DNA from: Haladaptatus paucihalophilus DX253
GTDB taxonomy: Archaea; Halobacteriota; Halobacteria; Halobacteriales; Haladaptataceae
Reading direction: 5' to 3'
NCBI RefSeq assembly: GCF_000376445.1
Contig: NZ_AQXI01000001.1
Span: forward strand, 1,830,962 to 1,894,961
Length of the DNA: 64,000 bases
The position numbers were made by a program, and so were the translations under genes. Position 1 is the stretch's first letter. Each line of letters opens with the position of its first letter. Below are positions 57,653-62,878 of this stretch, one piece after another. The notes below the pieces were generated by a model, which had not been told where the DNA came from, searched no databases, and saw only the letters and a program-made list of their open reading frames with translations.

Positions 57653-57991
57653 ATGAAACTCGACCCGGATCAACTCGAAGCGCGACTGATGACGCACGGC
57701 GTCTACGTCACCGAACTCGACGTGGACGAGGGGAGAATCGACATCGAGTACGAATCCATCGCCGCCGGGAAAACGAACGCGGTTCCGCACCGGGAGGTCG
57801 GCCGCGTTATCAACGTTGTCCGGGACCTCGCCGAGACGCCGCGGGACGTTCACGGGTCCGTGACCGACCTCGACGACGAAGCGGTCGGTCGGTGGCGTGC
57901 CGAAGCCGAGTGGCTTCGAGCGTTGGAGGACGAGGAGCTATCGGAGGTCGATTTCTCCCAGCGAGTCATCGAGACGATAGACGAGTCGTAG
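57653..57991 (+). CDS. conserved haloarchaeal hypothetical protein (112 aa)
   Basis: A soluble acidic protein of 112 residues: MKLDPDQLEARLMTHGVYVTELDVDEGRIDIEYESIAAGKTNAVPHREVGRVINVVRDLAETP, then a helical DEEAVGRWRAEAEWLRAL-type segment. No catalytic motif or membrane segment is seen. It looks like a family found in many haloarchaea, function unknown. A TTTAGG box is placed about 27 nt before the ATG, so it probably has a leaderless transcript. Confidence 0.75.
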   Translation: MKLDPDQLEARLMTHGVYVTELDVDEGRIDIEYESIAAGKTNAVPHREVGRVINVVRDLAETPRDVHGSVTDLDDEAVGRWRAEAEWLRALEDEELSEVDFSQRVIETIDES

Positions 57992-58006: not shown

Positions 58007-58810
58007 TCACGGCGAGCGCACCTTGGACCGAAACGCCTCCGGGGCCGCCTCGGGGTGGATGGCCGACGAGAGGTCCGCTTCGTACACCATCGGCCACGGG
58101 AAACCGCGGGTAACTCGCAACGTGTCGCCGTCGATTCGAACGTCGCGGATGCGCCGCCACGGGACGAGGGACCCGCCGCTTTCTTTGTTCGGTCGGACGA
58201 GCAACCCGTCGTCCAGTGCGACGAGTCCGACCTCCTGTTTGCCGGTCAACAGCGTCCCGATGGTCGTCCCGATGAGCGTCCCAATGAGTGTCGTGGAGAG
58301 GAATTGGACTGTGACGAACTCGCCGAGTATCAGTTTGACCACGGCGATTCCGATTGCGCTGGAAACCAGGGTGAGCGGCAGTTCGTAGCGCCGCGATTTG
58401 GTACCGATGACGTTCGCCCGGACCGACCGGGTTTGGTACAGTATCTCCGCGTGGCGACCCGAACCGAGGGAGGTTGCGACGAGCGCGACGACTGTAAACA
58501 CGGATAAGCGGAGGATGATTCCGGCCGTGGGGTCGTAGTCCGTGAACACCTCGGCGAGGAAGACGCCCGCGAAGGGGAGGACGCCCGCGACGGCGAGCGA
58601 CCGATGGAGGCGGGAACAGACCGCGCGGTCGAGTTCGTCGCGGAACTGCTCGGCGGCGGTCCACCCGAGGAGGGTGACGAGGAGACCGATTTCGATTTCG
58701 TTCGCGGGCGCATCGGGCCACAGCCACGGGAGGGCGGCCGCGACGGCAGTTCCGACGAAGAGGCCGAGCGCGACGCTAAACGGGCGAAACCGGGGAGGGC
58801 GGAGCTGCAT
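58007..58810 (-). CDS. membrane protein with C-terminal PH-like domain
   Basis: A 267-residue protein with about six to seven hydrophobic segments in two sets (FSVALGLFVGTAVAAALPWL, EIGLLVTLLGWTAAEQF, and VVKLILGEFVTVQFLSTTLIGTLIG), then a cytoplasmic domain with EVGLVALDDGLLVRPNKESGGSLVPWRRIRDVRIDGDTLRVTRGF, which resembles a bacterial PH-like domain. The start at 58810 fits a GATTAATG box A about 27 nt upstream on the minus strand. It is divergent from the transmembrane pseudokinase gene with a dyad between them, so they may be co-regulated. Function unknown. Confidence 0.7.
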   Translation of the reverse strand: MQLRPPRFRPFSVALGLFVGTAVAAALPWLWPDAPANEIEIGLLVTLLGWTAAEQFRDELDRAVCSRLHRSLAVAGVLPFAGVFLAEVFTDYDPTAGIILRLSVFTVVALVATSLGSGRHAEILYQTRSVRANVIGTKSRRYELPLTLVSSAIGIAVVKLILGEFVTVQFLSTTLIGTLIGTTIGTLLTGKQEVGLVALDDGLLVRPNKESGGSLVPWRRIRDVRIDGDTLRVTRGFPWPMVYEADLSSAIHPEAAPEAFRSKVRSP

Positions 58811-58843
58811 ACGGAACACGTAGCTTCCGAATCACATTAATCG

Positions 58844-58931: not shown

Positions 58932-60935
58932 ATGCGAGATGGGTCCTCGAATCGACGTGAATTTCTAGCCACGGTCGGTCTGGCGCCCTTTGCTTGGGTT
59001 CCGAGCATGGACATCACACGCTCTTTCGCACCGGAACCGAACGTTCGGTGGACGTTCGAATTGGAAGAGGAACCGAAATCGGGATCACTCCTTCTCGACG
59101 GGGCGACCGTTTACGTGGCGACGAACGACAGGTTGGCCGGCCATTCTGTGGTGACAGGTGACCGACGATGGGAAACCGCCTTCGATACGGGCGGAATTAC
59201 TCCGGTTGCCGTCAGGGACGGCACCGTCTATGCGAGCGACGGCGATGTCGTCCACGCCCTGAATTCGACTGAATCGACCGGAACATTCGGAAACGAACGC
59301 TGGCGCGCCCGAGGAGGCGACCGTATCGCAACGACGGAAGAGATGGTGTATCTGGGCGCGGGAACGCTGGATGCGCGTTCTTCGTGGAACGGGAAACTTC
59401 GCTGGCGGTTCGCCGGTGACGAGCCGATACATCGGAAACCGGTAGTACACGACGAAACGGTGTACGTCTCGGACAACAGTGGAGGACTGTACGCGGTTTC
59501 CACGGAAGACGGGAGCGAACGATGGAATGCGTTCCACAACAGCGAGAATCCGAATCGCTCCTCGTCGCAATCCATAGCAGTCGCAGGGGTCATCCCGGAA
59601 TACGACACGACGCATTCGACCGGAAGCGTACTCGTGTGGGATTCGACGTACGGGAGCGTGTCCGCCTGTGCGGCGGACACAGGCCGTCTGCGGTGGCGAT
59701 TCATGGCGAACGACGGACGAAAAGCGTCGAACGCAACGATAACCATGGCTGGAGGGCGGATTTACGTCGCCGCCGGTCGGCGGCTACACGTACTCTCGCC
59801 AGCCACCGGAGACGAACGGTGGCACGTCACGCTTCCAGATGAAATATCCGGGAGCATCCACTCCGACGGGTTCAGCGTGTTCGTCGGAACGACCGGTGGG
59901 GAGGTCTATAGTTTCGCCCGGAAAAACGGGACGCAACGGTGGAGCTTCGGCACGGAAGAAGACGGAACAACGAGGAGCAGAACCGACGATTACGGCCGCC
60001 CTATCGCGTGGCAGGGGAAGGAATTGGACGCGTTGGACGCAAGTGGAGAGCTTCGCTGGAAGCGGCGGTTCGAAAGTCCACCGTGCTGTCCTCCGAGCGT
60101 AGCGAACGATTTCGTCTACGTGCTTACGGGTGATGGGACCATTCACGCCCTCGGGACGGCCGAATCAGCACCGATATTTGGAGCGATACAGGTCGCAAAA
60201 TCGCTCGATTGGATACCCGTCTTCGGCGCAGTCGTCGGAAGCACGGCACTTGCCGGTGCGGTGTGGAAACTCCATTCATCGGGCGACGAGACGGAGGGGG
60301 AGATGAGGGAGTCTGCCGACGAACCCGAGTATCCGACGTGGAACGGCTACGAACTCCACGAGCGATTGGACGCCGAAACGCATCTCGCTCGAACGATGGA
60401 CGGCGATACCGTTCTCCTACGGCGATTCACCGATCCGCCGGAAACATTCGAGCGAGACGCGAAGGAGTGGAAAAAGCTCGGTGTCGATGGCGTCCAGCAG
60501 GTGCTCGGCTGGGGCATCGGCCCGGAGCCGTGGGTAGCGGTAGAACGCGTGAACGGACGAACGGCCTCCGAAATCGCTGCAACGCTCGACGAGGGGAACG
60601 CCGTGGATGTCGTCGGACGGGCGGCCGAAATCGTCCATCTCGCGCACAAACGGGGAGTGTTTCACGAATCGCTCTCGCCGGAGAACGTGGTGGTAACGGA
60701 TTCGGGCGTGGTGGTCACTGACTGGCGGTTTACCGGGACCGGGGATGGAAGGGAACGGAGCGTCCCCGCGGACGTTCGTCGCCTCGGGGGACTCGTCCGG
60801 TCGCTCCTCTCCGACGAGCCGTCCGAACCGCTTCGGGACGTGCTGGAACGGGCCGCCGCGTCCGACCCGGACGAACGCTACGAATCCGCGCTGGCATTCG
60901 CCGACATGCTCCGCTGGGCGGCCCGCAACCGCTAG
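58932..60935 (+). CDS. signal peptide, PQQ-like beta-propeller, TM and pseudokinase domain protein
   Basis: A 667-residue membrane protein. Residues 7-25 (NRREFLATVGLAPFAWVPS) look like a Tat signal. Residues about 37-420 form a PQQ/BamB-like beta-propeller with repeated GxxRWxF blades (TGDRRWETAF, DGSERWNAF, TGRLRWRFM, TGDERWHVTL). A single TM segment (about 427-447) leads to a protein-kinase-like fold (470-667), where the glycine-rich loop is lost, the VAIK Lys is Arg (497/498), HRD reads HES (578-580) and DFG reads DWR (597-599). It is probably a pseudokinase sensor. tatC follows after 101 nt. Confidence 0.8.
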   Translation: MRDGSSNRREFLATVGLAPFAWVPSMDITRSFAPEPNVRWTFELEEEPKSGSLLLDGATVYVATNDRLAGHSVVTGDRRWETAFDTGGITPVAVRDGTVYASDGDVVHALNSTESTGTFGNERWRARGGDRIATTEEMVYLGAGTLDARSSWNGKLRWRFAGDEPIHRKPVVHDETVYVSDNSGGLYAVSTEDGSERWNAFHNSENPNRSSSQSIAVAGVIPEYDTTHSTGSVLVWDSTYGSVSACAADTGRLRWRFMANDGRKASNATITMAGGRIYVAAGRRLHVLSPATGDERWHVTLPDEISGSIHSDGFSVFVGTTGGEVYSFARKNGTQRWSFGTEEDGTTRSRTDDYGRPIAWQGKELDALDASGELRWKRRFESPPCCPPSVANDFVYVLTGDGTIHALGTAESAPIFGAIQVAKSLDWIPVFGAVVGSTALAGAVWKLHSSGDETEGEMRESADEPEYPTWNGYELHERLDAETHLARTMDGDTVLLRRFTDPPETFERDAKEWKKLGVDGVQQVLGWGIGPEPWVAVERVNGRTASEIAATLDEGNAVDVVGRAAEIVHLAHKRGVFHESLSPENVVVTDSGVVVTDWRFTGTGDGRERSVPADVRRLGGLVRSLLSDEPSEPLRDVLERAAASDPDERYESALAFADMLRWAARNR

Positions 60936-60970: not shown

Positions 60971-61036
60971 GAATTCCGGCGAGCAACGTTGATAGCCGAG
61001 CGAGGCGTTACTAGGGATGCGATTGGGGGAGTTCGC

Positions 61037-62878
61037 GTGGGGGCACTTGGATACGACAGATTGGGAGGAGTGGCGGGTATCGCGCTTCGGAGGGTACGCT
61101 CCGAGCTACGGCTGGCGTTCGTCGTCTTCGTGGGGGGATTTCTGGCGACGTTCTACGCGCTTCGCTATTGGATATGGCCCGCGTTGGCGCGGCGGCTGCT
61201 GGAGTCGAAGGCTATCGTCGTCGCGGTGACGCCGTTCGATGTCGTCCTGCTACAGGCGAAGATAGGACTCATCACTGGCCTGCTGATGGCCGCGGTCTTT
61301 CTCCTCTATCGAACACGGCGGACGGAGCGAGGTGGGGACCTCTCGATGCCGGGAACGAGACGGACGCGACTGCTGGTCACGGGTCTGGTGGTCGTCCTGT
61401 TCGGCGGCGGCGTGGCCTACGCGTACCTCGTCTTCCTCCCGTTGCTGTTCGATTTCCTCGTCGACAACGCGATTCGGTCCGGATTTCAACCGACCTACTC
61501 CATCGTGGAGTGGACGCAGTTCGTGCTCCTGCTGACCATCGTGTTGGGGTTCACCGCCGAACTGCCGTTGCTCATGGGCGGATTGGTGTACGCCGACATC
61601 GTTCCCTACGACCTGTTCCGTGACCGATGGCGCTACGCCGTCTTCGGCATCGTCGTTATCAGTTCGATGGTGAACGGTTCGCCGGACCCGTTTTCCATGT
61701 CGCTCGTGGCGATACCGATGACGACGCTCTACTTCGTGGGACTCGGCTGTGCGCGACTCGTGGACCGCGGGAGCGGCGGGAGTCGAACCGGCATCGGGGT
61801 AGACCGTCCGGGTGAAATCGACCTTTCGTCCCTCGACGCGTCCGGGATTCGCTCCGCGCCGCCCGAAACGTTCGATTCGCTCGCGGAACACGAGGCGCTC
61901 GAACTGGCGGATACGGCGCTCGATTCGGGCGACCACGAGCGAGCGGCGGCCATCCTCGACCGCTTTGACGCCGCGAACGACAACGGGGACGACGAAGCGG
62001 AGGAACGAACCTCCGAAAGCGAAGCCGACGACGGGAACGGCCTGACGACTGCGGTGGAGGGAACCACGGCCCGGATGGCGTCGGTGTTCACGGAAGAGGA
62101 GAAAACCGAGGACGACATCGGCGGCTACTACTACGACCTGCGGTTCGTCCTCGGAAGCCTTCGGAGCAAATCGTTCCGCCTCGCGGGGGTGTTCATGTCC
62201 GTCGTCGCGCTGACGTTCACGTTCCTCTACGGGGGCGGCATCGGCGCGATAAAGCGGGATTTCCTGACGAAGCTTCCCGAAGGCGTGAATCCCGAGGCGT
62301 TGAACATCGTCCTCCTGCATCCGGTCGAAGCCCTCGCGTTCGAGATGAAGGTGAGCCTCATCGCGGGTGCGGTGGCGGTGATGCCGCTGGTGCTGTACTA
62401 CGCGTGGCCCGCCGTCGAAACTCGACTGGACGCGCATGCCGACCGAAACGTGTTCCTCGTTTGGGGCGGCGCGCTGGCGGTGGGGCTGTTCGGCGGGAGT
62501 TTCGTCGGCTACCGCTACGTCGCGCCGGAAGTGATGTCCTATCTCGTAGCCGACGCCCGCGCCGCGGACATGATAATCGCCTACCGCACGGGGGCGTTCT
62601 TCTGGTTGGTGTTCGCGCTGACCGTCGGGGTCGGACTGCTGGCCGAAATCCCGGTGACGATGCTGTTGTTCCATCACGGCGACGTCGTTTCCTACCGGAC
62701 GATGCGGCGGCGCTGGCGTGAGGTTTCCATCGGCGTGCTGGTCGTCGCGGCGGTGCTTCCGGGTGGGCTGTTGTTGATGCTGTTCGTCGGAACCGCGGTG
62801 ATGGTCGCCTACTGGTTCGGGTTGGCCGTGCTCTGGGTCGATTCGCTCGGCGAGCGGTTGCGTCGCGTGGCGACGTAG
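61037..62878 (+). CDS. tatC: Sec-independent protein translocase, TatC fusion (TatCt-type)
   Basis: Core subunit of the twin-arginine translocase, which exports folded proteins. At 613 residues it contains two TatC-like modules (about 20-260 and 350-605) with the TatC-typical segments [57 protein letters not shown] and [25 protein letters not shown], joined by an acidic linker; about 12 to 14 TM helices. Haloarchaea have such a fusion next to a normal TatC, but only this one is here. The start is uncertain: I take GTG 61037; TTG 60989 is an in-frame alternative. Confidence 0.85.

Follow-up and report, generated by a model that had tools for sequence, protein, structure and literature searches.

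A Tat-type propeller protein with a degenerate kinase domain, repeatedly lost in Haladaptatus

Architecture of the locus and its product

The window, a stretch of 64,000 nucleotides from the genome of Haladaptatus paucihalophilus DX253, contains an intact open reading frame (58932..60935, + strand) that starts with ATG and runs for 667 codons without frameshift. Its product of 667 amino acids combines a Tat-type signal region, a beta-propeller, a single transmembrane (TM) helix and a kinase-like C-terminus, the layout that the first-pass annotation had read from the DNA and that our searches bear out. The signal region (residues 1-25; 58932..59006, + strand) contains NRREFL. Residues 5-11, SSNRREF, present the Tat-type RRxF motif, and all 14 family members with an N-terminus have the twin arginine, as Tat substrates do at the motif level. 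Residues 36-415 (59037..60176, + strand) correspond to a propeller of the BamB/PQQ_2 type, matched by PF13360 with 128.4 bits against a cut-off of 27.6 (E 4.3e-37), and by the NCBIfam model for AfsK. Because nine blade-closing RW motifs follow one another at a spacing of about 40 residues, we count about eight blades. A single-sequence AlphaFold2 model of the propeller (pLDDT 32.5) is too poor to serve as structural proof. The TM helix (residues 427-445, WIPVFGAVVGSTALAGAVW; 60210..60266, + strand) reaches a Kyte-Doolittle maximum of 1.53 at a position common to most relatives. Directly behind it, most members carry several lysine or arginine residues, so that the C-terminus is expected inside according to the positive-inside rule. 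Together with the Tat motif, this rule would place the propeller outside the cell.

Two neighbours of the gene lie, in our assessment, outside its system. Downstream on the same strand, about 54 bp away, begins a gene for a tandem-domain TatC (60989..62878, + strand; PF00902 in two stretches, E 2e-63), the second tatC copy of the genome. It encodes 629 amino acids; the other TatC has 757 and is encoded at G000:C1:1703446-1705611. Within the family, the short TatC form occurs only in the genus of the window and one sister genus. The TTG start at 60989 is doubtful, and the first 12-24 amino acids are not conserved. Upstream lies a gene for a polytopic membrane protein (58007..58819, - strand). 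It had been annotated as PH-like, a label for which Pfam and NCBIfam give no support, as neither yields a match; we refer to it below as the "PH-like" gene for convenience. The protein has a beta-rich tail and is 47-80% identical where present in Haladaptatus. A further protein of 112 amino acids (57653-57991), equally blank in Pfam and NCBIfam, is 71-78% identical in other Haladaptatus and missing at the locus of Haladaptatus sp. DYF46.

Kinase fold and loss of the active site

The C-terminal domain (residues 468-667; 60333..60932, + strand) matches PknB with an E-value of 4e-6 in a PDB sequence search even when used alone. A profile of 12 family members aligns over positions 7-213 of 219 with residues 11-278 of PknB (E 9.7e-26), spanning the two-lobe kinase profile in full length, as a Hanks/PknB-like fold should, with gaps at the activation segment and in the alpha-G region. 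PF00069 is matched by 9/12 members (best E 1.8e-12) and remains below threshold for the window protein itself (E 0.09). A single-sequence AlphaFold2 model (pLDDT 51, pTM 0.33) is again too poor as structural proof; in this low-confidence model the secondary-structure elements come in kinase order, and all 50 Foldseek matches listed are kinases, with a TM-score of only about 0.2, so that modeling lends the fold faint backing at most. The profiles, by contrast, argue for a real kinase fold, the absence of which the first-pass annotation had allowed for.

Catalytic residues are largely gone. There is no glycine loop; the lysine of VAIK is replaced by Arg497 (60420..60422, + strand), and the HRDxKPxN motif reads HESLSPEN (60663..60686, + strand), with Ser580 in place of the aspartate and Ser582 in place of the lysine. 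Asn585 is kept, as is Asp597 at the position of DFG, which reads D597-W598-R599 (60720..60728, + strand). Of the residue set of active kinases (VAIK lysine, HRD aspartate, asparagine, DFG aspartate), R497 and S580 thus leave the window protein only half. Only 16 residues separate the DFG position from helix alpha-F, without an APE motif, compared with 37-41 in seven intact haloarchaeal kinases, all of which read K/D/K/N/DWG in the same alignment table. The alignment agrees with what the earlier annotation had said about the glycine loop, Arg497 and Ser580, and offers no alternative placement that would restore a catalytic aspartate. The reading of DFG as DWR also holds, yet the tryptophan is no sign of degeneracy, because haloarchaeal kinases normally read DWG, and DWR differs from this by a single substitution of glycine to arginine. 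The deletion of the activation/P+1 segment and the loss of the HRDxK lysine had not been recorded in the first-pass annotation. That catalysis is unlikely, as proposed, is strengthened by the 16-residue activation segment and by residue losses throughout the family.

No member of the clade linked to argS (see below) has the K/D/N/D set complete, and the HRD aspartate is lost in 28/29 members of the wider pseudokinase clade. The one exception is the nearest relative (genome G007; kinase domain 60% identical), which reads HED and lacks the VAIK lysine, the HRDxK lysine and the DFG aspartate instead. The VAIK lysine is retained by some Halorussus members, and the alignment contains no nucleotide-contacting residue that is conserved throughout the family. 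Invariant positions are structural ones and those of the last helix (SALxFADxLRW), which includes the most conserved motif of the domain, DPDERYESALAFADMLRW (alpha-H/I; 60864..60917, + strand); this part also persists as a relic 5' of tatC in relatives. As judged from its sequence, the window protein is a true pseudokinase, in which the remaining N585 and D597 may still allow some nucleotide or metal binding.

Relatives, synteny with argS and multiple losses

An order-wide search of 392 genomes, followed by a reading of the loci, retrieved the propeller-TM-kinase fusions that the first-pass annotation had suggested looking for, in intact as well as pseudokinase form. Tat-propeller-TM-kinases with intact catalytic motifs occur in other haloarchaeal families, for example in genomes G075 (L105 1299-3638; HTDIKPAN...DWG) and G354 (L096 3756-6152; HLDLKPEN...DWG), with Pfam E-values of 7e-53 and 1e-88 for PQQ_2 and of 3e-35 and 1e-33 for Pkinase. 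These two share with the window protein the RR signal, the PQQ_2 propeller, the TM helix and the kinase-fold C-terminus in the same order, but have GxGG, VALK or IAIK, HxDxKPxN, DWG and a full activation segment, whereas the window protein keeps only the asparagine and the aspartate. The domain order, previously thought to be unusually inverted, is therefore ordinary in haloarchaea, and a second protein of this layout (L090) is encoded in the same genome. Descent of the window gene from haloarchaeal Tat-propeller-TM-kinases, in this direction, appears probable. In both G075 and G354, the intact gene stands in tandem with a Tat-propeller-TM-pseudokinase gene (clusters L105 1299-8499 and L096 1492-6152), and the products could form kinase-pseudokinase receptor pairs.

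A tree of the kinase domains unites 29 Tat-propeller-TM-pseudokinases, mostly from Haladaptataceae, in one clade (support 99/97), within which the argS-linked copies form a subclade (98/94) next to a group of paralogues; a copy in G017 (L044) falls outside. L090 (PQQ_2 E 3e-30, Pkinase E 1.4e-8) resembles the window protein in architecture, in its placement in the pseudokinase clade and in the loss of the HRD aspartate (HGG for HRD). It differs in retaining an APE-like activation segment of 31 residues and in its wider distribution across the family. Its genomic neighbourhood, an ABC-transporter region that looks from the sequence to be of the phosphonate type, has no obvious partner in common with that of the paralogue in G009.

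In seven genomes of the sister genus, which we take to be Halorussus, the gene and argS are immediate neighbours, with the gene on the 5' side, and in four others they are no more than 6 kb apart; the window-type tatC is absent there. In Haladaptatus, the two are separated by the second, tandem-domain tatC. The syntenic anchor of the gene is thus argS, not tatC. As argS is a housekeeping gene, this adjacency looks like vertical inheritance rather than a functional operon, and the position beside tatC like an accident of history. Conservation beyond the strain, one of the points raised earlier, accordingly holds for the gene (Halorussus, G007), but not for its adjacency to, or co-occurrence with, tatC and the "PH-like" gene. 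Between a wyosine-type radical-SAM gene and the propeller-pseudokinase gene, no consistently co-inherited partner was found. In G022, two copies of the gene, one per subclade, stand in tandem 5' of argS, and G018 contains fragments of a second argS (L045 11282-11591) between the propeller-pseudokinase gene and the full argS.

Intact copies are present in 10/18 Halorussus genomes, but in only 2/9 Haladaptatus genomes, the window's own and G007. Four other Haladaptatus genomes hold C-terminal relics, of 38 codons (DYF46, G008), about 21 (G006), about 15 (G001) and about 14 (G003), the last two reading DPFLTFADILRW and ESALKFADMLRW, respectively; G002, G004 and G005 have no remnant. Window genes are 80-96% identical to those of DYF46, in conserved order; there, the 38 codons stand in frame directly 5' of tatC with 76% identity, and the tested neighbours are intact; this relic was also the only match in a scan of genome contigs. 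In G006, the first blades are fused to the C-terminal piece, with a frameshift, and G010 has kept the propeller but not the kinase domain. As the breakpoints differ between genomes, there must have been several independent deletions. The family is fast-evolving and often lost, and the gene is dispensable.

Where the gene persists, it is under relaxed but purifying selection, alike for both parts of the protein: dN/dS ratios between Halorussus pairs range from 0.39 to 0.63 for the propeller and from 0.38 to 0.62 for the pseudokinase domain. Between the DYF46 relic and the window gene, dN/dS is 0.21, a rough value over 38 codons, close to the 0.24 of tatC, which suggests that the deletion is recent. 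Third-position GC content (GC3) is 0.69 in the gene compared with 0.80-0.88 in its neighbours and, like the repeated loss, also fits a gene under weak constraint.

Possible function of a receptor without catalysis

Together, the data suggest a model, to which we assign a probability of roughly 60%, of a dispensable, Tat-exported single-pass receptor or scaffold whose dead kinase fold relays signals, if any, without phosphotransfer. The protein would be exported by the Tat system and anchored as a single-pass membrane receptor, with the BamB-type propeller outside as the part that binds a ligand or a protein of the surface. On the cytosolic side, the kinase fold, dead and without activation segment, would act as a docking or scaffold module, so that ligand occupancy would be passed on by protein contact instead of phosphotransfer. 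Descended from haloarchaeal Tat-propeller-TM-kinases, the gene would have remained under weak purifying selection, dispensable and repeatedly deleted. To single it out as the leading candidate for an undescribed signalling system, as was done earlier, overstates the case for what seems to be one such member of a receptor family.

It could be argued instead that the gene is simply in decay, the ancestral receptor kinase having lost its function in this lineage and deletion being still to come. The thin distribution in Haladaptatus, with its relics and complete absences, the reduction to a propeller in G010, the low GC3 and family dN/dS values of 0.4-0.6 all speak for it. However, the frame in the window is unbroken over its whole length, more than half of the Halorussus genomes have an intact copy, and dN/dS is clearly below 1 in both domains; in DYF46, the rough value for the relic indicates constraint until shortly before loss. 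We therefore consider decay rather unlikely, though worth keeping in mind. An enzyme of a non-canonical kind, which binds a nucleotide and uses other residues to transfer phosphate or AMP, would be compatible with the retained N585 and D597 and with the VAIK lysine of some Halorussus members, but is very improbable given that nucleotide-contacting residues are not conserved across the family and that both the glycine loop and the activation segment are absent.

The tandem genes in G354 and G075 raise the idea that the pseudokinase acts on an active kinase, either as a decoy or as an allosteric partner. In the genome of the window, however, searches with PF00069 and with the family profile found no intact Hanks-type kinase, but only pseudokinases (the window protein and two with HGG, L090 and L091) and one RIO-like kinase, so that its Hanks-type kinases all seem to be dead. 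It is hence improbable that the output consists in switching on a canonical Hanks kinase, and a partnership with one is highly unlikely here, which leaves scaffolding or docking as the simplest function; the C-terminal domain of the receptor would then be a scaffold. Barely credible, finally, is the proposal that the protein reports on Tat export or the state of the envelope together with TatC and the "PH-like" protein. The nearby tatC on the same strand and the Tat motif of the protein itself speak in its favour, but the Halorussus gene stands 5' of argS without such a tatC, the window-type tatC is kept in 9/9 Haladaptatus genomes and in G009 with or without the propeller-pseudokinase gene, and the "PH-like" gene is present without it in G002, G004, G005 and G008. 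The phyletic pattern does not support the proposed module and argues against coupling to either gene, and we found no evidence for the reporting function. The repeated, datable losses are a warning against inferring function from adjacency to tatC.

Fusions of a propeller with a kinase or pseudokinase are known from AfsK of Streptomyces, which is active, and from the actinobacterial ActPs1, which often lacks the G-helix (PMC1262709; PMC12599244). Both join the fold to a PQQ_2 propeller, but with the kinase first and the propeller C-terminal, the reverse of the order in the window protein. Scaffold function is found in EssB/YukC and MviN (ActPs3), pseudokinases that span the membrane once or are anchored to it and whose activation loop is reduced; by analogy, they may serve as precedents for a membrane pseudokinase scaffold (PMC12599244). 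They differ in having no propeller, another topology, and T7SSb or peptidoglycan synthesis as partners. PknB of M. tuberculosis, the closest solved kinase fold to the family profile, is active and has its kinase domain N-terminal and a PASTA sensor outside.

Much is known about pseudokinase receptors of eukaryotes, while the cataloguing of bacterial ones is just starting; among the papers that we searched, none dealt with archaeal propeller-pseudokinases. Here, catalysis has disappeared from a clade that retains the full architecture of a receptor, while intact kinases are found in neighbouring clades, a natural series in which one can ask what role a receptor kinase retains without phosphotransfer. 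Tentatively, a whole clade of haloarchaeal receptors with a Tat-exported propeller might signal across the membrane independently of phosphorylation, by a pseudokinase that has no cognate kinase in the cell; the inactivation would then be older than the family and maintained by selection. The third pseudokinase of the genome, L091 (2056-3642; G000:C3:168133), has its kinase-like domain fused to HEAT-like repeats and reads HGGLCPPS.
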